From Desulfovibrio sp. UCD-KL4C (GTDB lineage: Bacteria; Desulfobacterota; Desulfovibrionia; Desulfovibrionales; Desulfovibrionaceae): a stretch of 64,000 nucleotides of DNA. The position numbers were made by a program, and so were the translations under genes. The stretch is taken from positions 248,001 through 312,000 of the forward strand of contig NZ_VCNC01000003.1 of assembly GCF_006210265.1 (NCBI RefSeq), given 5' to 3'. Positions 45,085 through 63,937 of this stretch are shown piece by piece; position 1 is the stretch's first letter; every line of letters begins with the position of its first letter. The notes under the pieces are model-generated. The model saw nothing but the letters and a program-made list of their open reading frames with translations. It searched no databases and had not been told where the DNA came from.

Positions 45085-45956
45085 TATTTTACCTTCTTAA
45101 TTACATAATCTGCGTACATGGACGCAGCGTCTATCCCACGCGCATCAAGCAATCCTCTGAATCCTCCGAAGGCCGAAACTTCGAAGATGAAAGGCCCGTC
45201 GTCTGTTAAGGCTACATCAACGCAGGTAAAGTCCAGATTGAACAGAGATTGAGCCTTGTGGGCAAGTTTTATTATTTCTTGTGGTGGATCAAAGGGAGCG
45301 TATTTTCCACCGTTTATTGTAGTGGTGTTCCATGCATTGTTTGTTTTACAGCGAGCATATGTTGTCACATATTTTCCGCCTAAGAAAACGATCCCGAGAT
45401 CACTGTCTTTGAGATCGATAGTTTTCTGGATGTACATGGTTTTATATTTTTTGCTGTATTTTTCGATAGTCTCGCGGGCTTGCGGGTTTGGTTTAAGCAC
45501 AAACATGCCGCGGGCCTTGGTGCTGTAGAGTGGTTTAAAAACGGCTTCACCGTATTCGTCCACTGCAGCAAGGGCATGGTCGACATCTTCGGTGATAGTT
45601 GTAGGCGGCATGGGGATATCGCCAAGTTGTAATGATATTGTGCAAGTCAGTCTGTCCAGTACCCTTAATATGCTATAAGGGGATGAGAATATTTTAACTC
45701 CACGTCCTTCGAGCATGCGAAGCATTTCAAGACGATCAAGCAGGTCTGGTGAATATTGTTTGCCGATTTTTTTTATGATGATTGCGTCAAGTTCTGCAAG
45801 ATTAACTCCGTCGACAACAGCCTTACCGGAAGGAAGGTCAAGTCGCACATCCTTCATCTCGAAGAGCATTCTGTCCTGACCTGTTTTTTGGGAGACAGCA
45901 TCAGCCAGTTGCTCTGAAGACCAAGCTCCCTTAAGCCCGATTACTCCTATTTTCAT
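45084..45956 (-). CDS. GAK-system ATP-grasp ligase
   Basis: A 290-residue ATP-grasp enzyme related to RimK. The N-terminal domain is MKIGVIGLKGAWSSEQLADA; the nucleotide-binding and grasp segments are EAVFKPLYSTKARGMFVL, YIQKTIDLKDSDLG and LDFTCVDVALTDDGPFIFEVSAFGG, shown in part, with the Glu/Asn-type metal site near FIFEVSA. RimK-like enzymes join a carboxylate to an amine through an acyl-phosphate, so amino acids or peptides may be added to an operon protein. I start at ATG 45956, where AAGGATA lies seven bases upstream; an alternative ATG at 45977 overlaps the preceding stop codon. Confidence 0.87.
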   Translation of the reverse strand: MKIGVIGLKGAWSSEQLADAVSQKTGQDRMLFEMKDVRLDLPSGKAVVDGVNLAELDAIIIKKIGKQYSPDLLDRLEMLRMLEGRGVKIFSSPYSILRVLDRLTCTISLQLGDIPMPPTTITEDVDHALAAVDEYGEAVFKPLYSTKARGMFVLKPNPQARETIEKYSKKYKTMYIQKTIDLKDSDLGIVFLGGKYVTTYARCKTNNAWNTTTINGGKYAPFDPPQEIIKLAHKAQSLFNLDFTCVDVALTDDGPFIFEVSAFGGFRGLLDARGIDAASMYADYVIKKVK

Positions 45957-45976
45957 AGTATATCCTTTATGTTGCA

Positions 45977-47629
45977 TTAATAATGAAGAATGTCTTCAGG
46001 CAGTGTGAAATTATCCCAACTTCCGCTGTAACGGTTAATTTTTTCAAGGAGAAACATTGAGCGATTAAACATCTCTTTTGCAAATCCGTAATTAAATTCA
46101 AAACGAGTTGAAGTGTAAAAGGATCGAACCAGTGCGAGCGTCAGCCTTGCCTTCCATGTGGGGTCGTTGTTCTCAGCCGCAAACTCTTCCGCAAAGCTGT
46201 AGAATCTGGAGATTACCACGTTTATTTTATTCCGTATCGGCCTGTCGAATATGGGCATGCGGAAGCACGATACTAGAAAAACAGAGATGTCCTGAATGTA
46301 ATCAAAGTTTCGGGATCTGTAGAGATCAATAAATCTGATCCGTTCATCTGCATTGCTGTAAACAACATTATTGCAGTTGAAGTCCCCATGGATAAAAACA
46401 GTGAATGGAGCTGGCAGACCATGTTCAGCAGATATTGCTTCATCAATAAGCTCCGCTGAGGATATTATTTCTGATGATCCAAGTGATCTGGCATGACGGT
46501 TAAACTCGGGATGAACCTGCAGTACACCGGCCTGACGGGATTTAAGCTGTTCCATATAGTTGGTTACAAATGGGCCTTTTTTGATGGTCGTTGTCCAAAT
46601 ATTTCGCAGTGACTGTTCAAGTGTGAAAAGACCGTTTTCAAGGTCCACATCGTCAGAGGTGAGGATCATTGTATCCAATGTACAGCCCGGTAAAAATTCT
46701 ACCAGCATTGAGGCTTTATTTTCCGCAGGGGTTTCGTGGTAACCGAAGATGTCAGGAACTCTTCCGGGAAACATTTTGTTCCAAAGCTTGAGGTTGTCAC
46801 GCTCAGCCTTAATTTTTGCAAGATTGCCTTCTTTATAGATGCTTCCTTGCGCAACCGGAGGTCCGTTTTCCTTGTCTTTTGCCTGTACATGTCCAATTCT
46901 GCATCCTGAGCGGGAGCCCCATATTCCTTGAAAATCGATGTCTGAAAAGGAACCGTCAAAGCCTGAAACAGTCAGAGTATGTTGTAGTGATTCAAATTGT
47001 TCAATCTTGATACGTTCGCCCAAAATGGAGAATATGATTGCTTCGCCTATGTTAAGAAGTGAGTCTCCGATTCTTTCAAGATAGCGGAATATAAATAAGA
47101 CTGTAACTAAATCAGGAATATTTTTACCGCTTCCCATTTCAGCCATAATACGGTTGAAATTGTCTTTATAAAGGGAATCGAGGTTATATTCGGATTTACA
47201 GATTGCAAGGGCTAAGGGCATGTCCTTGTCATCAAATCCTTTCTCTATTGAGGCCGTCGTTGTTTCTATTATATCAAAAGCTTCAGGGCTTTCGAATCTG
47301 TTAACAAAAGATTTATCCTCAAGGTAAGCCATCTGGTTAACTATGTTGACACAGTAGTCACCGATTCGTTCAAGATTGACGGATGCTAATTGTATGGCTC
47401 TTATTTTGTTAAGAGTATTGTCGTCGAGTTGAGTATCTTTGTTTATACGGGAATAAGTTTTGTTTTCGATGATTGTTTTTAAGTTATCAATATAATCGTC
47501 ACGTGAAGTGATCTTACGGAAGAGTGAACGCGATGGGGAATTGACAAAATTTCGAGTCGCAGCAATCTGATTTTTAACTTCAAGCACAAGAAATTTAAAA
47601 TTTTCGTCTAAACCTTCAAATGTCAGCAT
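45977..47629 (-). CDS. GAK-operon PhoU-aminoglycoside-phosphotransferase-like fusion protein
   Basis: A 550-residue cytosolic fusion. Residues 1-215 are a PhoU-like helical domain with two matching repeats, LERIGDYCVNIVNQM near 86 and LERIGDSLLNIGEAI near 184, carrying the ExxxD metal motifs. Residues about 235-550 are an APH/choline-kinase fold with the catalytic loop FIHGDFNCNNVV (414-421) and metal Asp in RFIDLYRSRNFDY. PhoU domains bind metal and regulate phosphate uptake; APH domains phosphorylate small molecules or proteins. The start lies two bases after the amphi-Trp stop, and the stop overlaps an ATG of the next gene. Confidence 0.85.
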   Translation of the reverse strand: MLTFEGLDENFKFLVLEVKNQIAATRNFVNSPSRSLFRKITSRDDYIDNLKTIIENKTYSRINKDTQLDDNTLNKIRAIQLASVNLERIGDYCVNIVNQMAYLEDKSFVNRFESPEAFDIIETTTASIEKGFDDKDMPLALAICKSEYNLDSLYKDNFNRIMAEMGSGKNIPDLVTVLFIFRYLERIGDSLLNIGEAIIFSILGERIKIEQFESLQHTLTVSGFDGSFSDIDFQGIWGSRSGCRIGHVQAKDKENGPPVAQGSIYKEGNLAKIKAERDNLKLWNKMFPGRVPDIFGYHETPAENKASMLVEFLPGCTLDTMILTSDDVDLENGLFTLEQSLRNIWTTTIKKGPFVTNYMEQLKSRQAGVLQVHPEFNRHARSLGSSEIISSAELIDEAISAEHGLPAPFTVFIHGDFNCNNVVYSNADERIRFIDLYRSRNFDYIQDISVFLVSCFRMPIFDRPIRNKINVVISRFYSFAEEFAAENNDPTWKARLTLALVRSFYTSTRFEFNYGFAKEMFNRSMFLLEKINRYSGSWDNFTLPEDILHY

Positions 47630-50049: not shown

Positions 50050-50586
50050 TTAATTATCTGCAATAGCGAGTTCTTCCAGATTCTTTTCTGTTTCACGTTC
50101 AAGTGCCGTTTTTATCTTCATAGCAATTTCTTTTTTGCGTTTAAGATCAGCCACTTCTTGAGGGTTATCTTTAGCGGCTTTGATTTTAAGGTCATATTTA
50201 TAAGCAACGCTGATAATCTGATCTTTTTCAACCAATTTTGTTGCAATAAAAACTATTTCTTTTTCAGAAACATGTTGTTCGCCTGAAAAATCGAAGTCTA
50301 AGTGCGCTTCAACAATATCGGCTATTTCGGGGTATCCTTGTTTTCTAAGTGCTGCTCCTGCCAGTTGTTCATGATCTGGACCATGACCGGCAACGTTGCT
50401 CAGTAATGCGCCAGCCCTTATCAGGGCAATGTTCGGTCCGCTGTCGCGTAACCACTTTAAGTCGCGGCCTATTCGTAAAGCAACTGTGCTGATAAGTTCG
50501 GCGTTTATAAGCTGGTCTTCCGGAAGTTTAAAAACTTCTGTCAGTAATCTTTCGCATTCTTCTGCATTCGGAATATTGGTATTCAT
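50050..50586 (-). CDS. HD-like domain protein with degenerate metal site
   Basis: A 178-residue cytosolic protein. The helical core resembles an HD phosphohydrolase: IRAGALLSNVAGHGPDHEQLAG, then LRKQGYPEIADIVEAHLDFDF. The place of the hallmark His-Asp in ALLHDIG is Ser-Asn (ALLSNVAG), so the canonical metal pair is missing while later His residues remain. It may be a regulator or a non-hydrolytic binder. I start at ATG 50586, where AAGGTGG lies six bases upstream; the frame stays open to 50643. It has its own terminator and is divergent from the vWA operon. Confidence 0.75.
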   Translation of the reverse strand: MNTNIPNAEECERLLTEVFKLPEDQLINAELISTVALRIGRDLKWLRDSGPNIALIRAGALLSNVAGHGPDHEQLAGAALRKQGYPEIADIVEAHLDFDFSGEQHVSEKEIVFIATKLVEKDQIISVAYKYDLKIKAAKDNPQEVADLKRKKEIAMKIKTALERETEKNLEELAIADN

Positions 50587-50958
50587 GTTCCACCTTAAGT
50601 TTTTGATTGAGTGCAGATTCTCAGAATTACTGCTTTGTATCAAGCAAATTAAGTCATTATGGAGGGAATAGTAAATAAAGTTTTGAATTAGAACTATAAA
50701 TTTGTAGACTGATCAGTAGCTAGTCGTAATTTTTATTCTTATGTCTGGATAATTTTGGCTAGTTGATTTTTTTGGCACTAATATATAGTATAATCTATAA
50801 ATAAAAATTGATTATTTTAAGTTGACCTAATGTTTAATTGATAATATTACGCTATACAAATAATATGTTAGTTTATTAAGTTGTAATTTCAGCATTATTT
50901 ATGGATTTTAACAACTCATATAGGTTTAACGTTATAAAGAGGTTGTGTGGGGAGAAGG
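50587..50958. other. Divergent intergenic region between HD gene and vWA operon
   Basis: About 370 very AT-rich bases without a gene. They hold a candidate promoter for the vWA-tubulin operon (50822-50850) and a leader of about 100 bases before the vWA start. No clear hairpin or operator is seen. Confidence 0.5.
50822..50850 (+). promoter_or_regulatory. Candidate sigma-70 promoter of the vWA-tubulin operon
   Basis: TTGACC (50822-50827) and TATTAC (50845-50850) are separated by 17 bases, about 110 bases upstream of the vWA start. The -35 box is strong and the -10 box is moderate; the AT-rich context allows chance matches. Confidence 0.4.
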
Positions 50959-53613
50959 ATGAATTCAAGAAAATTTCATACATGTTTGCTCTTGCTTATA
51001 ATTGTCTTAGGGGTTGCATGTCCCGTACAGGCGCGAGTTGTAACTGTTGTTTATGATGATTCTAAAAGTATGTTTGGCGGTTTCACTCTTAATAAATTTC
51101 ATTCAAAGGTCACCGATCGATGGGTATACGCCAATTACGCTCTTCAAACTCTTGCAGCCCTTATGCACAAGGAAGATAAATTATATGTTGTAAGAATGAA
51201 TGCCTTTAATGGGAAATCTAAGTCAGAAAAGAAATCTGCAAAGGTTGTAAAGTATTTGGGAACAGAAGTGCCAGAAGCTCTGAGCGATATTATGAGTTAT
51301 GGATGCGGACTATCTACACCGTATGGATCCGTTCGTTTTGCTGTTGATTGTTTTCTTAATGCTACAGATAAAACAAATAATAAAGGTAAATTCAATGATA
51401 CTCCGCTGAGAAGAGTTAAAGAGAAACGTAAGGATTGGTTGATCATAATTACTGATGGATCGTTTGATAGAATGTCTAGTAATCTTTCTCAAAAAAAGGA
51501 TCATTTTTTAAAAGATATTGCTGAAGATGTTGAAAAATATAAAGAAAAAACAGGAAAAGATAGCAGGGTAATTTTTTTACTTATCGGATCAAAACCGGAT
51601 AAAAGTCTTTACAATAAATGGAGAAAAGTCGTTGGCGGGCATGTGGAGGAACTAATAACTGTACAGGCCGCAGAAGGTGGTAATGGTATTCTTGATGCAA
51701 TGAAAAAAGTTGCAGCTATAATTGAAGGGCGCGATGCTGCCGAAGATAAGTTTCGGCCTAATTTTTCCGGTGATATATTTGAATTTGATTCACCATATCC
51801 ACTGCGTCGCGTCAGTGTTCAGCAGCAAGCCGATGGTATTAAGAATTTTTCAAAGCCTTATATTCTTATATTACCGGACGGAAGCGAAATTTCTTTTAGC
51901 CACTTCGAAATTGAAAGTCCCCATAAAACTAAAATAGTAACATTATTCGGTCAGAAGCTTGAAGAACGTAAAGCTCTTGATATAACGGGGGTTATTTCCA
52001 CAGCGGGCAGCAATGAAAAAGTTATGGGAGCTGGAATTTATCAAATATATTGTCCGGGTAATTTTACAGATTATACAATTAAAAATCTTCTAATTGAAAC
52101 ATCAGTAAATTTTAAACCTATGTTGGAAGTTAAAGGTATTGGAGCTAAAGATGAAAATAAAATCAATGGTAGCTATGATCTGTGCAGAGATGATGAAATC
52201 AGGTTTCATGTAAAATTTTCAGATTATAAAAGTAAACAGACTTTGACTTTTAATGAGGATCAAGCTGCGAAAATTGATGTTTATATTCTAGACAGTGATA
52301 TGAAAAAGCTTGGGGGATCATTTGTCTATGATGCTAGAACAAATGAGTTTATTTCAAATTGGCAAAGTGTTTCATCTATAAAAGGAACTCCTGATCTAAA
52401 AGAAATTTCAATCAGAGCTGTATCCCATGGATATTTTGATCTGAAATCAGATATATTCAAAATTAAAGCACAGAAACACACACGTAATGTTACTGCAACG
52501 TTAACTCCTTCAGCGATTAATGTTATATATAATTATTGCGATACACCTAAAGAAGTGGCTTCAGTTTCTGTGAATTTATCTAATGTACGGAACAAAAGCA
52601 GAGTAAAGTTTATTGCCAGAGATATTCCAGAAGGAATAACTATAAGTTCACAAAAAAAATCAGCTTCAACAGGTTACTCCGCTGAGGCGATGTATTCAAC
52701 AGAATCTCCAGTTACTATTTATTTGTATAGAGATAAGCATTTTATCCTTCCTGCTCCTGCTGAATTTTCCTTAGATATTCAGTTCCCCGATGACTCCGCA
52801 TTAAGAATTACTAACGCGAATACAAGAATTAAGATTATACCGCAAAAACGAAATATTAAGTTTGTACCTGATAGAACGGCTTGGAATTGCAGTGTTGTTG
52901 CCACGCAAAGTGTTTCTCCACTGATTTTGCGGCTTAGTGAAAATGGTAATCCTGTCGATTTAAATAAAGAAAATTGGTCAGCTAATACGCACTCGAATGG
53001 AGATGCTGTTTTCTTATTAAGTCATAATCCTGATCTAGGCGGAGCTTATGCCTTGACGCCTGATTTCGGTTCACTTGTCCCTCCATTACCGGCATCAGCT
53101 GGGGAATTTCCTGTTCAAATTAACTGGCTAGGACCGTTTCCAGGTGAAAAGTTTTCATCAACAGTGGTGTTGTCAATGCTCGATACTGATTTGTGGACTA
53201 AATATAAGTGGTTTGCAGTTTTGGTTTTAATATTTTTTTGCGTGGTTTGGTTCCTCTGGAGGTTATTTACGAAGAGAAGATTTTCAAGGAATGCCCAAAT
53301 TAAGTTTAAAACAATTCGTAGCGGTGTACCTCCCCGAGTCCAAACAACTTTTTTGAGGAAGAAAGGGATTGGTATTTTTTTAAGCAGATGGCTTTGGCCG
53401 TCAACCTCAGAAAAAATTAATGTCAGGGGAGTGAGTTTTAAAGCAGGAGATAATTCTGCAAGCATTATTATCGCTAGAGGCAGTCAAAAGAAGACTATGT
53501 ACATGCACGGTGTTCCTCTGGATTCTCCAGGGCAAAGAGACCAAAGCCTGACGCGCGGTTCCGCTATTGAAGATCGCGGAGACTATGTAATTAAAGAATA
53601 CTATTACAAATAG
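50959..53613 (+). CDS. Exported single-pass von Willebrand factor A protein
   Basis: An 884-residue protein. A signal peptide (MNSRKFHTCLLLLIIVLG, cut near residue 25) is followed by a vWA domain of about 210 residues with the metal-site pattern DDSKS (VVYDDSKSMFGG) and IIITDGSFDRMSS. Residues about 250-740 are beta-rich and probably Ig-like. One membrane segment (WFAVLVLIFFCVVWFLW) lies near 751-770, with a basic 114-residue cytosolic tail. So the vWA domain is periplasmic and the tail can contact the cytosolic partners. Start ATG 50959 has GGGGAG upstream. It is first in a four-gene operon, 18 bases before the tubulin-like gene. Confidence 0.85.
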   Translation: MNSRKFHTCLLLLIIVLGVACPVQARVVTVVYDDSKSMFGGFTLNKFHSKVTDRWVYANYALQTLAALMHKEDKLYVVRMNAFNGKSKSEKKSAKVVKYLGTEVPEALSDIMSYGCGLSTPYGSVRFAVDCFLNATDKTNNKGKFNDTPLRRVKEKRKDWLIIITDGSFDRMSSNLSQKKDHFLKDIAEDVEKYKEKTGKDSRVIFLLIGSKPDKSLYNKWRKVVGGHVEELITVQAAEGGNGILDAMKKVAAIIEGRDAAEDKFRPNFSGDIFEFDSPYPLRRVSVQQQADGIKNFSKPYILILPDGSEISFSHFEIESPHKTKIVTLFGQKLEERKALDITGVISTAGSNEKVMGAGIYQIYCPGNFTDYTIKNLLIETSVNFKPMLEVKGIGAKDENKINGSYDLCRDDEIRFHVKFSDYKSKQTLTFNEDQAAKIDVYILDSDMKKLGGSFVYDARTNEFISNWQSVSSIKGTPDLKEISIRAVSHGYFDLKSDIFKIKAQKHTRNVTATLTPSAINVIYNYCDTPKEVASVSVNLSNVRNKSRVKFIARDIPEGITISSQKKSASTGYSAEAMYSTESPVTIYLYRDKHFILPAPAEFSLDIQFPDDSALRITNANTRIKIIPQKRNIKFVPDRTAWNCSVVATQSVSPLILRLSENGNPVDLNKENWSANTHSNGDAVFLLSHNPDLGGAYALTPDFGSLVPPLPASAGEFPVQINWLGPFPGEKFSSTVVLSMLDTDLWTKYKWFAVLVLIFFCVVWFLWRLFTKRRFSRNAQIKFKTIRSGVPPRVQTTFLRKKGIGIFLSRWLWPSTSEKINVRGVSFKAGDNSASIIIARGSQKKTMYMHGVPLDSPGQRDQSLTRGSAIEDRGDYVIKEYYYK

Positions 53614-53631
53614 GTAACTACGGAGGTTGAT

Positions 53632-56600
53632 GTGGATTTCAATACAGTTCCTACGCTTCTTATTGGTTTAGGCGGAATCGGTTCACAAGTCGTTGATATG
53701 ATCTATGGAAAAATTCCTTCGAGCATGCACGATAGAATTGCTGTTCATGCTTTTGATACCAATATTAATGATATTGAAAAATGTTTTAATTTGAGAAATT
53801 TAATTACGCAGACCAGCACGAACTGGACTGTTGGTAATTATTTAGAAATTGCTGATAGTTCAGTAAATGAATGGTTTCCAAGCGATATTAGAGAGCTTAA
53901 ACGTAAACTTTTAACTGATGGAGCAGGCCAGGTCCGATGTGTTTCTAGGTTGGCATATCGTGCTTCCATTGATGATGGTAAACTTGAGAAGCTTCGTTCG
54001 CAAATTCGAGATATTTTTCAGGCACGCGGCGACAGGGCTATGCCGAGCGTCAGAGTTATGATTGTAACCTCTTTAGGCGGAGGAACAGGGTCTGGTATTT
54101 TCTTGCAAACCGCTATGTATGTCCGCGATATTTTGACTCATGAATTTCACAAAAATGCAGTGCTGGTCCGCGGTGCTTTTTTGCTTCCAGATCCTCTGAT
54201 ACAGAGCGGAGTTCTCGATAAAAATCATCACGAAAACGTTCGTGCTAATGCTTATGCCAGTCTTAAGGAACTCAATGCCATAACGATTAATGCCGGTTCT
54301 GACAGTAACAAACATAACGGAGCTACTATTGAGCTTGAATATAAGCCTCGTCAGGTAGATATCAACGGTAGGCAGTCTCATGTTGTCACTGATATGAATC
54401 TCCCTTTTGATTTTTGTTTTTTATATGATTTTGAGAATGAAAGAGGAGAAAATCTCAAATATCTGGATAATTATATTAATCAGATGGTCAAAACTATTCA
54501 TCTTCAGCTTTTTTCTCCTATCAGCGGTCCTTCATTTTCCGAAGAAGATAACTTCATTCTTGGATTGGTTAGCGAAAACGGGCTTAATCGTTACTGTGGA
54601 GCAGGTGTTGCTTCACTCGTTTATCCTTACGATAAACTTGTCAGATATTGCGCTCTGCGTTGGGCTGATGAAAGCTTTACCAGCGAATGGCTGAGGCTTG
54701 ATAAAGAGTACGACGAAGAGCTTGAGCAATACGAAAGAGACAGGCAAGCCGGGGTAAACGGTGAGCGTCCTAAAATTGGAAAGAGATATATCTCTCTTGT
54801 TGATAATTATGCAAAGGACAATAATCCTGATCCATTCTTTTTAAGTATACATGATGCTGTTCATATTCCAGGTGCGAGAGCAGTAGATATAAAGCCCCGT
54901 TCACAGTTATTTCTTGAGAATGTAGAGAAGCTGATTGAGCAGATTGTTAAGGATGATGTGGATCTTAATTATATGGAGCAGGAATGTATCCTTGATGATG
55001 GCCGACTTAAAAAAATCGATGATGCTGTCTCTGAAGTTGAGGATATGGAGGGACATCTTCTAGCTTATCAGCGTCAGGTTTTTGTTTCAGTACGTAGTCA
55101 TAAAAGTTTCATTATCAATCAAGCTATAAGAAGTGGATATGATAAAGTAAGTACTTCAGAATATAATCTGAGTTATTGGATGCTCAAACGACCGACGCCT
55201 CTTCATCCAGTTGCAGTACGTTATGTCTTGTACAGTTTGGAGGATAAGCTGGATTCCAATCTGAAAAAAATTCGTGAAGAAATCAGTGCTGTTGAAAAAA
55301 GTATCGATAACTATAAACAAGCTTATAATCTGAGTTCCAGAAGAGATGTTGTTGAAACAATTGAAGACAGGTTCATGGCTATTGAAAAAGGGTCGTGGTT
55401 TTCAAGAGTCTTCGGTGGCAAGTTAAAACTTTTAATTAATGAGTACAAAGAAAAGTCCTCCAGACAGCTCAATGCGCTTAATGTATATAGATTAATAAAG
55501 CTTAAGGAACTGGTTTATGAAGAGTTATTAAGCTGTGTGCGTGATCTTTTAAGAGACTGGAAAGATTATTTTGATCAGTTGCGCTCTATTAGAATCGGTT
55601 TGCAAAAAGAACTTAGAGATTGTGCGAATGAGAATGAACGTAATCAAGATTCAATGAATGTTTATATACTTGCATCTGTAGAAGATAAGGAAAGTATGTG
55701 GAATGAATTACGTACTTCAGTTGCAAGAAGCAGTGAGTTGCCTCCTGATTTCCTAGAGAAAATTTATGACGATAGGTACAAAAGATTTTGTGATAATCAT
55801 TTCGGTGCGAACCGGGAAAGATACTCTAGAGGCAAAAATTTCGGAGAAGAGATTGTCTCATGGTGTGAAACTGAAATCAAAAGGTCAGGCCGCTTAAGCT
55901 ATAACATCCTCGACGCCATTACTGAAGAAGCCCGCTCCAGAAATATTGATAATGATGCCCATTTAAAAGAACGGATTGCAACTTTGGGTCGCCTTGCTTC
56001 GCCTTTCGTGCCTGAAATTTCAAAAGGACAAGTTCAAAATCAGGAGTATTGGGGAATTAATTCCAGTACGCTCAGCAGCTATTCAGAAGATTGGATTAAA
56101 GACAATTTCGGAGGAGTCAGCAGGCTTGTGCGTGACGATTCTTTTTCAGAAACTGAACTGATTAGGTACACTGCTAGATATGGCTACCTAGCCTCTGATT
56201 TTACCAAATTTAAAGCTTCTGCACCGGGGTCAAGTATGGGAGATGGTTCATACCATACGGCCTATATGCGTAGAATTAAAAAGATTGTTGCCGGTGGAGA
56301 AGCTGTTACCCCACATTTAGATAAACGTTGGCATCTCCCTGCATACATGACTGATCTTAATAGTATTACAGGAGAAGGTGATCTTAAGATGAGCGATGAA
56401 GCGTTCTTGCTCGGGTTAGTCTTTAAGCGCTTTGTAAATCGGACTGAAGGTCGAAGATCACTATGGGAATGTCATACAGAAGATAGTGTTGGAAATGAGA
56501 CTATTAAGCTGGTTTACAAGGGGGGGGCACCTGTCGTCGGCGGTTTGTATGATTTATATGAGGCTCTCCCCCATAACCCTGGATTGGTTAATTCGATATC

Positions 56601-57006
56601 AGATTGGGCTAATGCAGAAATAATCAAACTTCCTTCCGAACGTTCAAAAAATAATGGGGAAATTTCTTTCAGTAAACGAAATGTCCAAATCGGCAAAAAG
56701 AAAGTCACTATTCTGGATGCTATAGCAAGTTTTGTAAGTGAAAGGCCCACAATGGCTGAAGCTGAGCTTGAAAAAATAACCGTAAACCTTATCGGTATCC
56801 TGTTTGATTTGATTCTAAATGCAAAAGAATCCAAGAACGGCAAAACATCCCAACTCAAAAATGCGTCAGAAACTCTACAGGAAATTAATGATCTTTTACT
56901 AAACTCATCAATTTACTCTGAGTTTATATCTGATGGTACTCGTCTAGCTCGAAACTGGAATGTAAAGGTTCAAAGTTATGAGAAAAGTTTAGAGAACTTC
57001 CTTTAG
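53632..57006 (+). CDS. Large tubulin/FtsZ-like GTPase (Tubulin_2 type)
   Basis: A 1124-residue cytosolic protein. The N-terminal domain has LLIGLGGIGSQVVDMIYG (nucleotide-binding loop) and the tubulin signature SLGGGTGSGIF at 148-157. The rest (about 300-1124) is alpha-helical, with coiled-coil stretches near 520-640, and is far longer than FtsZ. It probably forms GTP-dependent filaments or an oligomer. The GTG start at 53632 has GGAGG upstream. It lies between the vWA and two-TM genes and is probably the cytosolic organising protein of the operon. Not FtsZ or TubZ, since it lacks their compact two-domain layout. Confidence 0.82.
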   Translation: MDFNTVPTLLIGLGGIGSQVVDMIYGKIPSSMHDRIAVHAFDTNINDIEKCFNLRNLITQTSTNWTVGNYLEIADSSVNEWFPSDIRELKRKLLTDGAGQVRCVSRLAYRASIDDGKLEKLRSQIRDIFQARGDRAMPSVRVMIVTSLGGGTGSGIFLQTAMYVRDILTHEFHKNAVLVRGAFLLPDPLIQSGVLDKNHHENVRANAYASLKELNAITINAGSDSNKHNGATIELEYKPRQVDINGRQSHVVTDMNLPFDFCFLYDFENERGENLKYLDNYINQMVKTIHLQLFSPISGPSFSEEDNFILGLVSENGLNRYCGAGVASLVYPYDKLVRYCALRWADESFTSEWLRLDKEYDEELEQYERDRQAGVNGERPKIGKRYISLVDNYAKDNNPDPFFLSIHDAVHIPGARAVDIKPRSQLFLENVEKLIEQIVKDDVDLNYMEQECILDDGRLKKIDDAVSEVEDMEGHLLAYQRQVFVSVRSHKSFIINQAIRSGYDKVSTSEYNLSYWMLKRPTPLHPVAVRYVLYSLEDKLDSNLKKIREEISAVEKSIDNYKQAYNLSSRRDVVETIEDRFMAIEKGSWFSRVFGGKLKLLINEYKEKSSRQLNALNVYRLIKLKELVYEELLSCVRDLLRDWKDYFDQLRSIRIGLQKELRDCANENERNQDSMNVYILASVEDKESMWNELRTSVARSSELPPDFLEKIYDDRYKRFCDNHFGANRERYSRGKNFGEEIVSWCETEIKRSGRLSYNILDAITEEARSRNIDNDAHLKERIATLGRLASPFVPEISKGQVQNQEYWGINSSTLSSYSEDWIKDNFGGVSRLVRDDSFSETELIRYTARYGYLASDFTKFKASAPGSSMGDGSYHTAYMRRIKKIVAGGEAVTPHLDKRWHLPAYMTDLNSITGEGDLKMSDEAFLLGLVFKRFVNRTEGRRSLWECHTEDSVGNETIKLVYKGGAPVVGGLYDLYEALPHNPGLVNSISDWANAEIIKLPSERSKNNGEISFSKRNVQIGKKKVTILDAIASFVSERPTMAEAELEKITVNLIGILFDLILNAKESKNGKTSQLKNASETLQEINDLLLNSSIYSEFISDGTRLARNWNVKVQSYEKSLENFL

Positions 57007-57067
57007 CGCTGATATTTGTTTGGGCTTATATACAAGACATCTTATTCAAGAATAAAGGGGACTGTCT

Positions 57068-59212
57068 GTGCATACTGTTGTGCTTGATTTGTATGGTGAG
57101 ATACCATCTATGGCTGAATTCAAACCCTTTTTGTATCCGTTATTGTCTTCCAAAGAACTTAAATTGTTTTGGGAAGAACGTAACTCTGAAAACCCAGTTA
57201 ACTACGAACTCAGCTATAGAAAGCTCTTGCAGCATTTGCGCAGGTTCTCTGTAAATAATTGGCATCTGATAATTGTGCTTGGTGTTTCGGAAGAGACTAG
57301 CAGTTATGATGAAAACGAGAATTTATGTGCAGGCTCACTTGCTGACCAAATTACAAAAGTTCAAAACTCTTTGATTGCGCGTCTCAGCGGTAAAATGGTC
57401 CCTATGCGTGTAAGTTATATTGTCGTTGACCCTCTCAGTCGTCAGGGACATACAAATGCTCCTATTGATAAGAAAGATAAGTCCTATCTGCATTGGGAAA
57501 TGGATACTTGCGGTTACACTTCATCAAATAATATTCCATGTACTTTTCGTGAGCAGGACATCAAGGATCTTGAAGAATTAAAAGCTGATATAGATTTTAG
57601 TAAAGAGACAACAAGTGAAGGTTTTGGAGGGCTGAGCAGTGATTTGCGAGATACGCTAACAGCTTGTTGTGAAAAATATATTGAGTGTGTTTCTTCTGCT
57701 GTCTGCAGGGTCGCTTGTGAGTTGGAAGATCAGTTGGCAGCAAGTCGGGGTGTGAATATATATTCACGCGATAAAGAATATCTATCCATTAAAAAAGCGT
57801 TAGCTATTGAGACTAATTTTGAAGAAACTCTCTGGTCCAGAATACAACTTGATCCTGAATCTGTGAACAGTCTCAGGCCGGAAATAATCTTTAAAGAGCT
57901 TTTATATGATTATTATAGTGTTAACGGAATTATGAATGAAAGAAGTTGCTGTGTCAGAGTACGGCAGGCTGATTTTAGTGCTCCACGGCATGATTCAATA
58001 CAGTTTAGAGTTGGAATTATGATTCTTCTGCTTCATGAAATAGGGGATGACGGCAACATGCTGGGTGCAAAAAGTTTTCTCGCTTTAGGAAATAGTATTG
58101 ATGTTAACACTGAATTGGCCGGCAATATGATTGATCGCTACTTGCATGCGCTCGAAGTCGCTAAGGACTCAGTAAAAATTGATAGTACGCGTGCTATACA
58201 GGGAAGCTTCACTTTGCAGCGTACTCCTGAAGTTCATTTGGAAGAACCTAAAGTTCTAGAGCTTCCTGTATTCCCCACAACTATTTCTTTCGTGGATTGG
58301 AAGGCTTGGTGGGAAGAAGTAAATTCTTCTTTAGCCTATGAGAAGGATCAATATAAAAAATTAGATAAGGAAAATGTTTTTTTACTTAAACGAGCTAATA
58401 AAAATATTGAAACGGTGGATATTGATAATATTGAAACCGCTTTGGAGAAATTCAAAGAAGATAGTGAGGCTATGAAGAAGGTCGTAGCTAATAAGGAGTA
58501 TTTAGATTTTAGTGTGAGCTGGAGGGCGGATACAAAAGACTTAATCGATAAGTTGAAATATAGAATAGAGATTTTTTCAGGAAAAAGATTACTTTTTTAT
58601 TATGGGTCTATTGCTACTTTTTTTGTCATACTTATGCTTTTTTTGGGTGGAGGAGGTGGGTATCAGTATTACATGCTTAGCTGGGGAGTCCTTTCGCTTT
58701 TGACCATGGGCATTTGCTTGTTAGGTGCTAAAATAAAATTAAAGCGTGTTCAGGATGCGTTAAAAGCAAAAGCAAGTGCTTGTAAGAATGATTTAAGCAA
58801 AATTTTAAAGGGGAATACAGAACATTTGAAAAAGCAGTGTGAGTTTTCAGCTGTTGCCAATAATTATCGTAAACTTTCTAAAGAAGTTAATCACGAGCTC
58901 CGCTTGAAAAGTTTAATTTTGTATCATGCTAATAAAATTGCTGATCATATTGAATTAATGCGTCCTTTGGCTGAGATATGGAAGGCAGAGGAACCTATTC
59001 TTAATTCAGATGAATTTGCAGATAAAATTTTCTATGATCGCCCTGTTATTGACAATTTAATATATTCACCATCCACCTTTATTCCTGATGCTGCTTCATA
59101 TCGTTTGGTGGTTAAACATGGACTTACGAATCCTTCTGTAACTTATTTCCCGTTCGAGTTGGTTGAGCTGGAAGAAGACGGGATGTTTGAAGGAGGAAGA
59201 AAAGATGTATAA
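57068..59212 (+). CDS. Large hypothetical protein with two membrane segments and coiled coil
   Basis: A 714-residue protein that I do not recognise. The N-terminal 500 residues are soluble and start MHTVVLDLYGEIPSMAEF, with a predicted alpha/beta part (HLIIVLGVSEETSS, VSYIVVDPLSRQGH) and a helical part up to 500. Two membrane segments (about 508-526 and 535-554) are joined by a short glycine-rich loop. The C-terminal 150 residues are charged and helical, then a beta-rich end (VVKHGLTNPSVTYFPFEL). A GTG start has AGGGGA upstream. It overlaps the next gene by eight bases. Confidence 0.72.
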   Translation: MHTVVLDLYGEIPSMAEFKPFLYPLLSSKELKLFWEERNSENPVNYELSYRKLLQHLRRFSVNNWHLIIVLGVSEETSSYDENENLCAGSLADQITKVQNSLIARLSGKMVPMRVSYIVVDPLSRQGHTNAPIDKKDKSYLHWEMDTCGYTSSNNIPCTFREQDIKDLEELKADIDFSKETTSEGFGGLSSDLRDTLTACCEKYIECVSSAVCRVACELEDQLAASRGVNIYSRDKEYLSIKKALAIETNFEETLWSRIQLDPESVNSLRPEIIFKELLYDYYSVNGIMNERSCCVRVRQADFSAPRHDSIQFRVGIMILLLHEIGDDGNMLGAKSFLALGNSIDVNTELAGNMIDRYLHALEVAKDSVKIDSTRAIQGSFTLQRTPEVHLEEPKVLELPVFPTTISFVDWKAWWEEVNSSLAYEKDQYKKLDKENVFLLKRANKNIETVDIDNIETALEKFKEDSEAMKKVVANKEYLDFSVSWRADTKDLIDKLKYRIEIFSGKRLLFYYGSIATFFVILMLFLGGGGGYQYYMLSWGVLSLLTMGICLLGAKIKLKRVQDALKAKASACKNDLSKILKGNTEHLKKQCEFSAVANNYRKLSKEVNHELRLKSLILYHANKIADHIELMRPLAEIWKAEEPILNSDEFADKIFYDRPVIDNLIYSPSTFIPDAASYRLVVKHGLTNPSVTYFPFELVELEEDGMFEGGRKDV

Positions 59213-62200
59213 TTTTTTACCGTTTATTATTGGTTTTGTGGGGCTTGTAGCCGTGTGGGCTTTTTCTTTACCACGCAATAGGCGTTATAGAATGCGCCCA
59301 TTAGTATATCTCATTTTGGGAATTACAGTCTTTTTTTATGCCTTTCTGAGAATTTTTCCCGAAATTTTAAGTAACTTAGAAGAAGTACTCGGAGATAATT
59401 TTCAGAGTAAACAGATTCTTATTTTGTATTTTAATGCCGGTTTTATCGTAATCTTTGCTGCGTTTATGGCTTTTGCAAGAGCTGGTGGCTGGGCATGCCG
59501 TAGAGTTATACGTTCTCAGAAAAAGTCGCTAATCTTTATAAAGTTAAAAAAAATATGTCTAAATGACGCATTCACTGATGACTATTCGCGGTCAAAAGAA
59601 AAAAGAATTCCTTTTGGATACAGAAAAGGGCTTCAAAATAAAATTCTGATGAATCCTGAATTTAAAATATGGGGAATATTTCTTAACACTCTGGCTCTCT
59701 TTTTTATTATAGCATCAGTTGTTGCACAAATAGTTTCCACGCAGGGGCTGCTTGAGTCTACGGTCCTTAAGTATCCTGTCCTATTGACTTTAACATTCAT
59801 GATTACCGGACTTTATTTTTCAGGAACCAGTAAAGAGAATCGCACAAAGTTTACAAGTGAGGATGGTTCAGGCGGACTTTCCGGTAAATGCGGGGAACTG
59901 TATGACTCAATCGGTAAAGTTTTCCGAAGTAGTATTCTATTTGCAAGTGGCTTAACTAGCAGTAAATCCAAGTATTTTGCAGACCAGTCTTCACTGATAA
60001 CTGATCAGCGTTTGGTTGCAATCATAAGAACTACAAAAGAATATTTTCCATGTGGATTCAGTGAAATGCATAGAAAGTTGCTTGAGGCTTTATGGAGGGG
60101 GGAAGATTTGCTTGTTGTATCTGGAATGTATGATGAAATATCTCCCATCCTTTTTTCAGGTGTTCAGTATGATATACAACGGCTTAATCGGATTGTTGTC
60201 TTTACCAGCTCTCTACATGGCTCTAGGCAACGGCAGGAGGAAGAAGCATGGCTGAGCCGTTGGCTTGAAGATGGTTCTGTTTATTCCAAGAATGCAATTG
60301 CAATGGTCGGATTTGAAAATTTTACTGGTCAGGAAGATGTTCTAATAACCAGTCCGCATGAACTCCTGCTGAAACGCTTAGATTCTGAAACTGTAAAGGA
60401 ATGGGTCGAGCAGGTTAGTAAGATTATAGTGCTCAATATAGATGAAAGTGTTTTTTCTAATATTCTTCCTGCCGCATCAATTCTTAGAATTCTTCGTGAT
60501 ATTTGCGGAGAAGATTTACAGATGATTTACCTTACAGACGATTATGATGCTTCAGTGAAAGTTGTTGCCAGAGCTTACCTTGGCGGACATCCTGAAAAAT
60601 ATACCTTCAGGGGTAAAAAACCTAAATCATACTGCTATAGGTTTTTTGATCAAAATGATTCCAGTAATTATCTTACAGCTCATGGAGGGGTAAGTGATTA
60701 CGTAGCCCCGGAAAACAGTCTTGCCGCATTTATGTTGGCTTCAGGCGTACATTCAGTTCAGCTGCAAGGACTCAACAACACGGCATGGAATGAGTTTGTC
60801 AGTCGCATGGATGATGTTGAAACGGGGAGCCTAAACAGAGGGGCATACAGCAGTAAGGTGAGAATAAGGACTAGGCCCATGCTTGGTAAAATAAGTGATG
60901 CGGCTATCATTGTTTCACGTGATGATTCGTATAATTTACCTTTGGCTCTTAGTAAGACTCTGGAGGGTGCAAATGATCATCTGATGGCTAATATTTTCAG
61001 TCCCCGTTATTTGCTGCGCGATTATTTCCTTGAATATTTGGATTTTTTTCTGGATAACCCTTTGCAAAAATTAGCTCCTTTACTTAGCAGAGATAAGACA
61101 GGAGTGGCTCTGCTTGTATATGAACGCCTTTTAGTGGAAGAAATGGATGAAAAAAGTATTCGCCAGTTTGTGGATTCATTTTTTTATGCTGATCAATTAT
61201 CTGGAGCTACTGTTGATGACAATCTTCGAGCCGTTTTTGATTATGCATATAATAAAAAGTCAGATATTTCTTCATATTTTACCATCAGGGATGAAATGGT
61301 TTTTGATGATGATGCAAATGATTTCATCCCAGTTGCAAAGTATAAAATTTCACGTCAAATGTCTGAAGACTGGGCAATGGCTCATCGGCTTACTTTTAAA
61401 TTTAAAGATCCCTCAGGAAAAACTATTAAAAAAGTTTTTGGGCATCAGATCGTGCAAAATTGTCTGCCCGGACAGGTCCATTGTTATAATGGAGAGGCAT
61501 ACAGAATATCTTCGATCAATAGAGCTGGTAAATTTGTAAATGTTGAATATGTCCTGCCTGATGACGAAAGAAGCTATCGACATAAAGTTAAAATTGAGTG
61601 TCATGGCTGTAACGAAGTACTTGCTCGTGAAAATGATGGGAAGAGTGCTGGGAGTTATTATCTGAACAGTACTATTGAAGATTGTTTTTATTCCATAAAA
61701 ACAGAAGGTTATTTTGAGTTTAGTGACGGTGTTAATCTTGGAGATAATAAATATAAATACATTCCGATAAGTGATCCATTAACACGCACCATGATTCATG
61801 GCAGACGTTTGCGTTGGGAAATTTCATCGGTTGAGTCACTGCCTCTTGATGTAGACTCAAGAATATCTTTTACATTTGCAATTTTGGTTAAAGAGATGTT
61901 GCAGACTATGTTTCCTGATTTACATCAGTATCTGCATGTTATCCCAGTCCGTCCTCCTGAATTTGTCGATGATCATGTTGCTGAAAATTTACAGTTGGCA
62001 ACTCGTGTATCCGCTTTGCCTGAAGTGGAAGACGTAAATAAAGTCGGTGGTAATTTAGGGGTAGGGATTGAAATTTTTGAAGATTCTATTGTTGATATGG
62101 GACTCTGCAGAGCTCTTGAAGCCAGTAAGTCTCACCTTTTTGAGCTGATAGAAGATTATCTGTTATGGTATGAGAATATTGAGGATAAATCGGATTGTTT

Positions 62201-62972
62201 TTTATGGTATGGGCAGGAGTCAGAGCCTGAAGTGTTTAAGCTTAAGGAATTACGTGAAATTATTTCATCGCTTATTGAGACGCGTCATCAAACAATACGT
62301 AAACGCCGAGAAGCTTTTGCTCGGAGACCAATTGTAAGTGAGAGTGGTGATTCTAAATGTTGTTTCTGTGCATGTCCTGTTTCACCTGATCTTGTGTGGA
62401 AAGAAAAGGATGGCAGGAAATATTGTTATGAGTGCAAGCAGTCTACATGGGTTAGAGATAACGAATCTTACGAACAGCTTCTAGTCGATATTGCAAGTTG
62501 GATGTGCCGTCGGTTTAATTTAGATGGCATAATTGATTCTTGCCATGTTCACATCGTTAACCCTATGACTTTGGCAAAGTGTGTAGGAACGTTATATAAT
62601 CCATGCGTAAAGCTTACTCCGCGAAGTCTTGGCGCGGCTGTTAAAGAAGATAGTGGTGAAATAAAAATTTATATTGAAAACATGATGCCGGAATATATAG
62701 CCGTGTCTACAATTGTTCATGAACTAACGCATGTTTGGCAATATAATAAGCTTGGGGATTCATTAAGTGTTGTTCCGTTACCTGTGATTGAAGGTCATGC
62801 AACGTGGATGGAGATAGCCTATCTTACTGAGAAAGGTATGGGGCATTCCTATGTGCAGCGACTTGCTGGAGCAGATGATATATATGGCAAAGGGTATCAA
62901 CTGATTAAGCAAAAGTTAAACGGTCAGTATGGAGATCCGTTCGAGTATATTAGCAATTTAGTTAATGCATAA
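59205..62972 (+). CDS. Multi-TM protein with degenerate MrfA-type helicase body and DA1-like metallopeptidase tail
   Basis: A 1255-residue protein. Five membrane segments lie near 4-20, 33-50, 71-92, 155-176 and 187-206. Residues about 280-790 read like a decayed SF2 helicase of the MrfA/DUF1998 kind: DLLVVSGMYDEISPIL in place of the Walker A motif (no GKT), VLITSPHELL, IIVLNIDES for DEAH, IYLTDDYD for SAT, and PGQVHCYNGEAYRIS for the family's HPGAVYLHQG segment. A zinc ribbon (C1052-x2-C1055, C1074-x2-C1077) and a metallopeptidase site HELTH (1172-1176) with EGHATWMEI (Glu1196) form the tail, in the same order as LIM plus DA1-like peptidases. ATPase activity is doubtful. Start ATG 59205 has GGAGGAAG upstream. 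Confidence 0.75.
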   Translation: MYNFLPFIIGFVGLVAVWAFSLPRNRRYRMRPLVYLILGITVFFYAFLRIFPEILSNLEEVLGDNFQSKQILILYFNAGFIVIFAAFMAFARAGGWACRRVIRSQKKSLIFIKLKKICLNDAFTDDYSRSKEKRIPFGYRKGLQNKILMNPEFKIWGIFLNTLALFFIIASVVAQIVSTQGLLESTVLKYPVLLTLTFMITGLYFSGTSKENRTKFTSEDGSGGLSGKCGELYDSIGKVFRSSILFASGLTSSKSKYFADQSSLITDQRLVAIIRTTKEYFPCGFSEMHRKLLEALWRGEDLLVVSGMYDEISPILFSGVQYDIQRLNRIVVFTSSLHGSRQRQEEEAWLSRWLEDGSVYSKNAIAMVGFENFTGQEDVLITSPHELLLKRLDSETVKEWVEQVSKIIVLNIDESVFSNILPAASILRILRDICGEDLQMIYLTDDYDASVKVVARAYLGGHPEKYTFRGKKPKSYCYRFFDQNDSSNYLTAHGGVSDYVAPENSLAAFMLASGVHSVQLQGLNNTAWNEFVSRMDDVETGSLNRGAYSSKVRIRTRPMLGKISDAAIIVSRDDSYNLPLALSKTLEGANDHLMANIFSPRYLLRDYFLEYLDFFLDNPLQKLAPLLSRDKTGVALLVYERLLVEEMDEKSIRQFVDSFFYADQLSGATVDDNLRAVFDYAYNKKSDISSYFTIRDEMVFDDDANDFIPVAKYKISRQMSEDWAMAHRLTFKFKDPSGKTIKKVFGHQIVQNCLPGQVHCYNGEAYRISSINRAGKFVNVEYVLPDDERSYRHKVKIECHGCNEVLARENDGKSAGSYYLNSTIEDCFYSIKTEGYFEFSDGVNLGDNKYKYIPISDPLTRTMIHGRRLRWEISSVESLPLDVDSRISFTFAILVKEMLQTMFPDLHQYLHVIPVRPPEFVDDHVAENLQLATRVSALPEVEDVNKVGGNLGVGIEIFEDSIVDMGLCRALEASKSHLFELIEDYLLWYENIEDKSDCFLWYGQESEPEVFKLKELREIISSLIETRHQTIRKRREAFARRPIVSESGDSKCCFCACPVSPDLVWKEKDGRKYCYECKQSTWVRDNESYEQLLVDIASWMCRRFNLDGIIDSCHVHIVNPMTLAKCVGTLYNPCVKLTPRSLGAAVKEDSGEIKIYIENMMPEYIAVSTIVHELTHVWQYNKLGDSLSVVPLPVIEGHATWMEIAYLTEKGMGHSYVQRLAGADDIYGKGYQLIKQKLNGQYGDPFEYISNLVNA

Positions 62973-62993: not shown

Positions 62994-63021
62994 AAGGATC
63001 CAATTATATGATTGGGTCCTT
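62994..63021. terminator. Bidirectional terminator between the vWA operon and LysR gene
   Basis: Arms AAGGATCCAAT and ATTGGGTCCTT pair with one G-T wobble around a six-base loop between two convergent genes. The plus strand continues ATTCTTATA; it should serve both genes. Confidence 0.75.
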
Positions 63022-63049: not shown

Positions 63050-63937
63050 TTATACTCGTATATGCTCTTTATAAAACGTCAGAAAGTTTTCAACCAACGG
63101 TGTTACCCTGTCTGGACTCCAGACCATTGCTACTTCAAGCGGGGCTGATTCAGTTTCGATTTGTTTTAACACAACTCCTTCAGGCATAATGTGTTCTGAG
63201 CCGCAATCAACAAATGTCCATCCCATACCTGCAGCCACAAAAATTGTCTCAGTATGTTTACGCTGGAACTGCATTCCAAGTTTCAGCTTAAGTCCAGCCT
63301 CTTTAAATTTTTTTTGCACTTTTTCGACGCGCCTTTGGGAATAAGCTTCTCTGCTGCAAATATATGGAATAGTAGATAAGTCCTGCAGAGTCAGGACCTC
63401 TTTTTTTGCAAGGTCATGGCTGGCCGGTATTGCAGCGCATGAAAATGTACGCTGTACAATTACATGTGATAAGTCCTGAATGTCTGTAATATTCAGAGTG
63501 AGAAAGCCTACATGGCGCGTGCCATCAATTAAGTTAGTAATCTGTTGCAGGCTTGTCTCATCATGTAGAACTATATCCACTTGCGGAAACTTTTTCATAA
63601 AGTCTCCTACAATATCAGGGAAGGCAGAGGATAGAGTCAGATAGACAAAGCTGACATGAAGTTTTCCGGCTGTCCCTTCGCCCATGGCTTGAAGGGTCGT
63701 TCGAGCTCGTGAATCGTTTTTCAGTATTTCTTTAGCTTCACCTAGAAAATACTTTCCAGCATCGGTTAATTCCACCTTGCGGTTGTTGCGGTTAAACAGC
63801 TGCGTTCCAAGTTCTTCTTCTAATCTTTGAATTTGCCTGCTTAGTGGTGGTTGCTGAATGTGTAACCGCTCAGCAGCCTTACCAAAGTGCAGTTCTTCCG
63901 CCACTGCTTCAAAATAACGTAACTGACGCATTCTCAT
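63050..63937 (-). CDS. LysR-family transcriptional regulator
   Basis: A 295-residue regulator. The winged helix is MRMRQLRYFEAVAEELHFGKAA with ERLHIQQPPLSRQIQRLEEELG, and the co-inducer domain has TAGKLHVSFVYLTLSS and VAAGMGWTFVDCGSEH-like segments. It resembles the regulator at 32 kb but the two differ in the effector domain. It converges on the vWA operon, so it is not an obvious regulator of it. Target and ligand unknown. Confidence 0.9.
   Translation of the reverse strand: MRMRQLRYFEAVAEELHFGKAAERLHIQQPPLSRQIQRLEEELGTQLFNRNNRKVELTDAGKYFLGEAKEILKNDSRARTTLQAMGEGTAGKLHVSFVYLTLSSAFPDIVGDFMKKFPQVDIVLHDETSLQQITNLIDGTRHVGFLTLNITDIQDLSHVIVQRTFSCAAIPASHDLAKKEVLTLQDLSTIPYICSREAYSQRRVEKVQKKFKEAGLKLKLGMQFQRKHTETIFVAAGMGWTFVDCGSEHIMPEGVVLKQIETESAPLEVAMVWSPDRVTPLVENFLTFYKEHIRV

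Follow-up and report, generated by a model that had tools for sequence, protein, structure and literature searches.

A four-gene cassette from Desulfovibrio that combines a vWA protein, an FtsZl1 tubulin and an apparent membrane pseudo-helicase with a DA1-like tail, possibly forming a trans-membrane complex

What could a bacterium use an operon for that places a vWA protein, a tubulin-like GTPase, a two-TM protein and a helicase-like protein with a metallopeptidase tail side by side? We approached this question in a window of 64,000 nt, the whole stretch of DNA analysed, from Desulfovibrio sp. UCD-KL4C (NZ_VCNC01000003.1, 248,001-312,000, forward strand); all coordinates are positions in this window (Table 1). 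A sequence-only reading had described four plus-strand genes, and their lengths, gaps and overlap all match the ORF list, with 18 bases between genes 1 and 2, 61 bases between genes 2 and 3, and an 8-base overlap of genes 3 and 4. The same reading had suggested a complex in the inner membrane, its vWA domain facing outward and its tubulin on the inner side, which fits the topology that we predict here. Taken as a whole, its interpretation is partly supported by what follows.

Table 1. Position of the four genes and of their main features in the window.
Feature	Position	Strand	Details and basis
Gene 1 (vWA)	50959..53613	+	884 aa from ATG; ORF opens at GTG 50947
MIDAS motif DDSKS, gene 1 residues 33-37	51055..51069	+	DxSxS in 10/10 homologues checked
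Gene 2 (Tubulin_2 / FtsZl1)	53632..57006	+	1124 aa; ORF list, Pfam
GTP-binding loop GGGTGSG, gene 2 residues 149-155	54076..54096	+	GGTG[ASGT]G in 119/120 homologues listed
Subfamily motif TPHLDKRWH, gene 2 residues 893-901, C-terminal region	56308..56334	+	Homologue comparison
Gene 3 (two-TM, coiled coil)	57068..59212	+	714 aa; hydrophobic segments, homologue alignment
Gene 4 (TM, MrfA-like pseudo-helicase, LIM-like, DA1-like)	59205..62972	+	1255 aa from ATG 59205; ORF opens at TTG 59163
Gene 4 pseudo-helicase region	59982..62264	+	Model residues 50-810
LIM-like zinc module, CxxC - 18 aa - CxxC	62358..62435	+	Conserved cysteines, profile comparison
HELTH active-site motif, then EGHA ~20 residues on	62718..62732	+	HExxH in 7/7 tail-bearing homologues checked
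Terminator-like hairpin	62994..63021	+	Directly 3' of gene 4; 12-pair stem; consensus match only

The gene set is more than a chance neighbourhood, because the whole set recurs in the same order elsewhere and because the cassette occupies, as one block, a site whose surroundings are syntenic. A Desulfobacca MAG carries the identical gene order (682-1125-714-1289 aa). The 12-kb cassette lies between core genes in 3 of 17 congeners, and in all six examined congeners without it the flanking genes are direct neighbours; it was inserted as a unit. Its GC content is close to that of the flank (0.380 vs 0.399), no integrase gene is present in the cassette block, and target-site repeats around it were searched for by eye only. 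All four families are also present in three of the four Bacteroidota genomes examined, yet not as one operon. A Rhodothermia MAG has gene 2, gene 3, a 186-aa product and gene 4 in succession and gene 1 on a separate contig, and in genomes G453 and G454, where all four are present, genes 3 and 4 are adjacent and genes 1 and 2 are elsewhere. In a sample of 345 Bacteroidota genomes, gene 1 is found in only two, which are also the only two with gene 2 and gene 4 at full length. Recurrence of the four families together in distant bacteria, which the sequence-only reading had put forward as its test, is thus seen in Desulfobacca and in Bacteroidota genomes.

A rearranged version of the set is found on an Azospirillum megaplasmid, where an IS630 transposase gene lies close by; of the six plasmid records with a gene 2 match, this is the one that spans 82% of the gene. 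A phage origin of the cassette was rejected, as no relative turned up when viral contigs were scanned with gene 2 and gene 4, in protein or alignment form, and with three relatives; such scans are not exhaustive because they need conserved short peptides. Phage records gave a single match, an UNVERIFIED gut scaffold that we read as cellular DNA.

Gene 2 is a member of the Tubulin_2/FtsZl1 family, residues 9-348 matching Pfam PF13809 (Tubulin_2) with an E of 2.6e-61. Its C-terminal region carries a motif that sets a subfamily apart: TPHx[DH][RK]xWH is present in 113 of the 120 gene 2 homologues listed, as well as in L101 and L102, and a looser version of the TPHxDRxWH pattern is found in none of ten other FtsZl1 proteins from ten loci. 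Judging by these sequences the subfamily is probably large, with 547 proteins retrieved at E<=1e-60, 120 of which underlie the figures given here. Our scan of genome contigs relied on a pair of strict peptide patterns, and the search at E<=1e-60 shows that it clearly misses members of the subfamily.

Outside the cassette, Pfam recognizes a vWA protein next to the tubulin in four of seven distant FtsZl1 loci with neighbours scanned (L027, L030, L031 and L032). Gene 1 is predicted to begin with a signal-peptide-like hydrophobic stretch, followed by a periplasmic vWA domain, a large ectodomain, one TM region and a cytoplasmic tail of ~110 aa. Pfam finds no vWA match in the window's own gene 1 at E<=1, and the Desulfobacca homologue matches VWA_2 (E 8.4e-9). 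Gene 3 is predicted to combine an alpha/beta N-terminal domain with a two-TM hairpin (~508-526 and ~536-554) and a long helix or coiled coil. The parts that had been assigned to these three genes from the letters alone, namely a signal peptide plus vWA, a GGGTGSG tubulin signature and a two-TM coiled-coil protein, correspond here to a signal-peptide-like start with a MIDAS motif, a Tubulin_2 domain with GGGTGSG and two hydrophobic segments.

Gene 3 homologues were absent from 18 other genomes, a set that included no positive control. Three proteins were discarded as candidates. A 710-aa Azospirillum protein has the place and length of gene 3 and a hydrophobic segment at 487-505; it gives no profile match and is only positionally equivalent. 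Neither a 739-aa gut protein nor the 728-aa protein of L030 matches gene 3 significantly.

Gene 4 had been described as a multi-TM protein with an HExxH tail, and we indeed see four hydrophobic segments and HELTH, the TM segments being N-terminal. In structure comparison of its model, the best fold match is MrfA, a DUF1998 helicase, over residues ~274-1034 (Foldseek E 6.8e-20), and the first four Foldseek matches are all MrfA (structures PDB 6znp, 6znq and 6zns). The earlier label of helicase is therefore right for the predicted fold but not for the catalytic motifs: the DEAH-type motif DE[AVIC][HD] is missing from 10 of 10 gene 4 homologues outside Azospirillum, and no Walker A stands at the expected place, the first strand-loop-helix of the fold, in any of 11 homologues. 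A loose GK[ST] match occurs once, far downstream at 742-823, in 4 of 10 homologues; the homologue from Azospirillum lacks GK[ST]. For want of the Walker A and DEAH-type motifs an active helicase was rejected, and because Walker A is missing from its expected place in all 11 homologues, gene 4 looks like a membrane-anchored pseudo-helicase, presumably one that has lost its ATPase activity. Despite the lost motifs this part is strongly constrained (dN/dS 0.066 and 0.072).

The C-terminal end of gene 4 behaves differently, being its fastest-evolving part (dN/dS 0.227 and 0.25) and missing in 4 of 11 homologues; the core occurs without it in Bacteroidota and Azospirillum. Sequence comparison identifies this tail as a LIM-like zinc module followed by a DA1-like metallopeptidase. 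Aligned with bacterial LIM-DA1 proteins it gives an hhalign probability of 99.4 (E 2.2e-21, 199 columns) with the C, H and E positions invariant, and all three bacterial LIM-DA1 proteins scanned match Pfam DA1-like and LIM. The link runs via these proteins, as the window's gene 4 itself has no match to Pfam DA1-like at E<=1. E-G-x-A-x-W is invariant across six aligned tails, and the HExxH, the downstream glutamate and the four cysteines are kept in the tail-bearing homologues checked, which suggests that the tail may be catalytic. A C-terminal cysteine cluster is a feature of DUF1998 helicases. In the tailed homologues both conserved CxxC pairs belong to the LIM-like module, and CxxC is absent altogether from L044, L045 and the Azospirillum homologue.

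How these parts might work together can be read in several ways. Membrane remodelling, or a vesicle machinery, would have the tubulin bend or organise the inner membrane, with the other three genes as membrane anchors and regulators. Remodelling was proposed for FtsZl1 operons in 2010 (PMC2875224), and it would suit the family of gene 2 and the TM segments in three of the four proteins; however, as the text of that paper presents it, the proposal came from gene context alone and was disputed by a reviewer. Nothing in these data points to membrane deformation, it is not obvious why such a process would need a peptidase or a pseudo-helicase, and we consider this explanation unlikely. A sensor of envelope or metal stress, with divalent metals or damage to the wall acting on the vWA domain and a tail peptidase that merely binds protein, would agree with a MIDAS motif that is intact in every homologue checked and with the cores that are kept without a peptidase. 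Yet the catalytic residues retained in the tailed homologues point towards proteolysis, and a sensor with no protease output seems distinctly improbable to us.

It is also tempting to speculate about conflict, either anti-phage or self-limiting, in which the vWA ectodomain or gene 4 would sense infection, the tubulin would set a threshold and the peptidase would be a variable effector. The patchy presence of the cassette among congeners, an effector-like tail that is gained or lost among homologues and evolves fast, the megaplasmid location and neighbouring transposase gene in Azospirillum, and the parallel with the GTPase-centric tubulin/vWA systems described in the main text of PMC7159879 are all in line with this. 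In contrast, PADLOC models match none of the four proteins at E<=1, neighbours scanned by Pfam include no obvious defence gene, and viral contigs yielded no relative in the pattern-limited scans. Similarly, none of the four cassette proteins has a Pfam match to a DO-GTPase or to GAP1 at E<=1, in a library whose coverage of both models is uncertain. On balance, we regard a role in conflict as quite unlikely.

The best reading, to which we give a little less than an even chance, is that the four gene products form one inner-membrane complex, a trans-membrane sensor and assembly device with an optional protease. The gene 1 protein would expose a metal-dependent vWA domain on the periplasmic side and keep a small conserved tail on the cytoplasmic side. 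A membrane platform would be built by genes 3 and 4, the former through its two-TM hairpin with long coiled coils and the latter through TM segments bearing a helicase fold unable to hydrolyse ATP. On this platform the GTP-binding tubulin would assemble once a ligand binds to, or leaves, the vWA domain. Where the tail is present, the LIM/DA1-like peptidase would be a latent protease that assembly switches on and that cleaves a partner protein. A broader version, namely that this represents widespread trans-envelope signalling from an extracellular vWA sensor to a tubulin on an ATPase-less helicase-fold membrane scaffold and on to activation of a DA1-type (LIM-metallopeptidase) protease, is rather unlikely. 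If true, it would amount to a cytoskeleton-controlled proteolytic switch in bacteria with modular outputs. It would be unusual for a helicase fold to have turned into a conserved scaffold of the membrane, and equally so for it to carry a DA1-type peptidase.

Whether such a set had been described before was addressed in the sequence-only reading, which knew of none. The pairing of vWA with FtsZl1 is in fact known: such operons have been in print since 2010, when they were reported by Makarova and Koonin (PMC2875224), and tubulin-vWA 'GTPase-centric' conflict systems were published in 2020 by Kaur et al. (PMC7159879). Of the four-part set we found no description in the literature searched, and the same search gave no assigned function for FtsZl1 tubulins. 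The operons of PMC2875224 share with the cassette a Tubulin_2 protein, a secreted, membrane-anchored MIDAS vWA protein and membrane proteins. As partners, the main text of that paper lists PKs, a GTPase and OmpA proteins, and the words helicase, peptidase and metallo are absent from it; the unnamed families in its Additional files 5 and 6 may include genes 3 and 4. The GAP1-N2 systems in the main text of PMC7159879 resemble the cassette in joining, at the membrane, a tubulin with a C-terminal coiled coil and an extracellular vWA protein with a TM segment. They differ in being centred on a GTPase and GAP1, with the tubulin theme reported in Firmicutes and Actinobacteria, and the words LIM, DA1 and DUF1998 do not appear in that main text.

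Our data tie members of one TPHxDRxWH tubulin subfamily to a definite partner set that is kept per genome even when its genes are scattered, and the least understood partner, gene 4, gains a fold and a possible output. Gene 4 has its fold in common with MrfA and differs from it by the missing Walker A and DEAH-type motifs and by its N-terminal TM segments. The tail, in turn, shares its CxxC pairs, HExxH and downstream glutamate with the DA1 peptidases of plants and with bacterial LIM-DA1 proteins. The bacterial LIM-DA1 proteins examined are short and stand-alone, whereas the module of gene 4 forms the end of what appears to be a membrane pseudo-helicase.

The four plus-strand genes that the sequence-only reading had grouped as an operon are borne out by the ORF listing in their sizes, gaps and overlap. 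They encode a periplasmic vWA protein (gene 1, 884 residues), a Tubulin_2/FtsZl1 protein (gene 2, 1124 residues; the tubulin), a two-TM coiled-coil protein (gene 3, 714 residues) and an apparent membrane MrfA-like pseudo-helicase (gene 4), separated by 18 and 61 bases and then overlapping by 8. The gene 4 ORF itself opens at a TTG, while the ATG downstream gives 1255 residues and the 8-base overlap with gene 3. The genome holding the cassette (G000) is 3.93 Mb, and the closest named protein relatives come from Desulfovibrio gilichinskyi and Maridesulfovibrio ferrireducens. Of the 17 genomes of the genus, three, G000 counted, carry a close homologue of gene 2; both other carriers have the four genes complete, in the same order and with the same ORFs upstream, and three further congeners have a distant FtsZl1 relative alone. 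A 380-aa gene upstream of the cassette is present in all 17 genomes. In 6/6 congeners examined, from the 14 that lack a close gene 2 homologue, the two genes flanking the cassette directly adjoin each other; thus, the cassette is gained or lost as a single 12-kb block. Its base composition carries no foreign mark (0.380 vs 0.399 in the flank).

Coordinates of the features in the window and at three related loci elsewhere
Feature	Location	Strand	Remark
CofD-like gene	window 34973-36112	+	2-phospho-L-lactate transferase family
Nitroreductase to PhoU-kinase cluster	window 41271-47629	-	
CofD-like gene	window 42764-43951	-	2-phospho-L-lactate transferase family; in the cluster
Upstream flanking gene	window 50050-50643		adjoins LysR gene at the empty site
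Four-gene cassette	window 50959-62972	+	
TPHxDRxWH	window 56308-56334		near-invariant motif of the tubulin subfamily; C-terminal region
TTG start of gene 4 ORF	window 59163	+	
ATG of gene 4	window 59205	+	
Terminator-like hairpin	window 62994-63021		12-pair stem; 3' of gene 4
LysR gene	window 63050-63937		
FtsZl1 locus of a congener	L024 6830-17358		
186-aa protein, Rhodothermia MAG	L034 5349-5909	+	between genes 3 and 4
TAXI TRAP gene and FtsZl1 operon, Azospirillum megaplasmid	L101 9277-15417		

The same families recur together in distant bacteria. A Desulfobacca MAG has all four genes in unchanged order (682-1125-714-1289 aa), with identities to genes 1-4 of about 24, 40, 22 and 24%, the gene 3 match being limited to the N-terminal part. 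A Rhodothermia MAG carries gene 2, gene 3, a 186-aa gene and gene 4 in a row on a contig that ends at gene 2, and its gene 1 lies in the interior of a separate contig. The 186-aa protein gave no match in a Pfam scan at E<=0.01; its SRPBCC-type look is an impression only. On an Azospirillum ramasamyi megaplasmid the row is tubulin, a 710-aa protein, a gene 4 homologue and a vWA protein (E 2.5e-6 for gene 4 and 2.8e-9 for vWA, scaled to a million sequences); the 710-aa protein has the place and size of gene 3, with no detectable similarity to it. A TAXI TRAP solute-binding gene adjoins this operon, the same neighbour that reviewer 1 remarked on beside a Polaromonas FtsZl1 operon (PMC2875224). 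A human-gut scaffold encodes a 739-aa protein, a vWA protein and the tubulin before it ends, and two further proteins (P0008, P0009) are more distant gene 4 relatives. Among four Bacteroidota genomes selected for having the tubulin, the Rhodothermia MAG included, gene 1 is found in all and genes 3 and 4 in three. In two of the others (G453, G454) the tubulin sits amid unrelated genes, genes 3 and 4 adjoin each other away from it, and a further contig holds gene 1; in G452, genes 1 and 2 are present, and a search for genes 3 and 4 found neither.

Co-occurrence was also counted in larger samples. In 345 Bacteroidota genomes (a sample drawn three times, apparently identically), gene 1, full-length gene 2 and the main part of gene 4 were each found in two, always G451 and G453. 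These were already known positives, and the informative part is the other 343, where each of the three scored 0/343, a distant FtsZl1 protein occurred in three genomes, and 12 had a free-standing protein related to the gene 4 tail, with nothing else of gene 4. In the window's own phylum, Tubulin_2 was found in 11/394 genomes (10 above the cut-off) and gene 4 in 2/395 (G000 and G132), both within those 11. Neither the gene 3 family nor the gene 1 family was found in any of 15 other genomes that have a distant match to Tubulin_2 or FtsZl1, or in two congeners lacking FtsZl1; the same gene 1 scan recovered gene 1 in G132, as expected. Of seven distant FtsZl1 loci with scanned neighbours, four (L027, L030, L031, L032) have a vWA gene alongside, in agreement with the 2010 description (PMC2875224).

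Of 7995 candidates scored with the tubulin profile, 547 proteins reached E<=1e-60; named sources among the 120 listed are Bacteroidota, Longimicrobium, Bacillus and Neobacillus and their kin, and Desulfovibrio and its kin. GGTGxG is retained in 119 of these 120, and TPHx[DH][RK]xWH is present in the C-terminal region of 113, against 0/10 other FtsZl1 proteins checked; the motif would serve well as a diagnostic marker. Another FtsZl1 locus in a congener (L024) encodes an FtsZl1 protein of 1545 aa, together with a protein of 758 aa whose start bears a tubulin-like glycine-rich loop (a weak, 22-residue match) and two proteins of ~600 aa that have several TM segments and a signal-peptide-like start; it is possibly a separate variant of the same theme.

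The C-terminal tail of gene 4 bears two CxxC motifs and HELTH...EGHA, and matches bacterial LIM-DA1 proteins (hhalign probability 99.4, E 2.2e-21; alignment of 9 of the 12 loci found), 3/3 of which, when scanned, match Pfam DA1-like and LIM. Burroughs et al. (2011) reportedly noted that LIM domains in prokaryotes occur next to membrane-associated peptidases. In plants, DA1 carries an HEMMH motif and is a latent peptidase, whose activity is abolished by a cysteine change in the LIM-like domain (PMC5322733). Because 7/11 gene 4 homologues keep the tail (four of them being the window's own copy and near relatives that share 70-92% identity with it) and four lack it (P0009, L044, L045 and Azospirillum), it looks like an optional output outside the core. 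The stand-alone multi-LIM DA1-like proteins (L046-L057, in 12/345 genomes of the Bacteroidota sample) are relatives of the plant growth regulator, and those inspected have signal-peptide-like starts. In gene 1, DxSxS and [TS]DG are conserved in 10/10 homologues and the TP position is invariant in an alignment of eight; a conserved tail of ~110 residues follows the TM segment. The predicted model of gene 3 (pLDDT 65.1) comprises an N-terminal alpha/beta domain, helices, a TM hairpin and, at ~532-637, a helix, and a fold search with it gave no convincing match.

The analysis shows the parts of the cassette and their association in the genomes examined. Makarova and Koonin reported vWA/FtsZl1 operons in which additional families, left unnamed, also take part, in a main text from which the words helicase, peptidase and metallo are absent (PMC2875224), and Kaur et al. 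outlined tubulin/vWA systems built around a GTPase and GAP1 (PMC7159879). Passages of two other papers mention FtsZ-like/Tubulin_2 proteins and the vWA link, and not these partners (PMC9871819, PMC5898192). Such two-part systems are already known; in the open literature, covered mostly by titles and abstract openings, we found no paper on the four-part set.

The predicted topology exposes a ligand- or metal-binding vWA domain on the outside, with the tubulin, the pseudo-helicase and the peptidase on the inner side. On our preferred reading the cassette would be a sensor coupled to an assembly platform, in which the tubulin would assemble on the products of genes 3 and 4 and its assembly state would be relayed to the protease, in lineages having one; we infer the assembly, the signalling and the proteolysis. 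Membrane remodelling, as proposed in 2010, is a live alternative. So is a conflict system like the tubulin/vWA systems of 2020, which fits the patchy distribution of the cassette and the gain and loss of the gene 4 tail; however, the four proteins have no PADLOC match, Pfam reveals no obvious defence gene among the neighbours scanned, and pattern-limited scans of viral contigs found no viral relatives.

Elsewhere in the window, a minus-strand cluster comprises nitroreductase/ferredoxin, CofD-like, weakly HPr-kinase-like and RimK-type ATP-grasp genes and a PhoU-kinase (EcKL/APH) fusion; a second CofD-like gene lies on the plus strand. In the congener stretches around the empty site, the ATP-grasp gene is present in 5/6, the sixth beginning too late, and the PhoU-kinase gene in 6/6.
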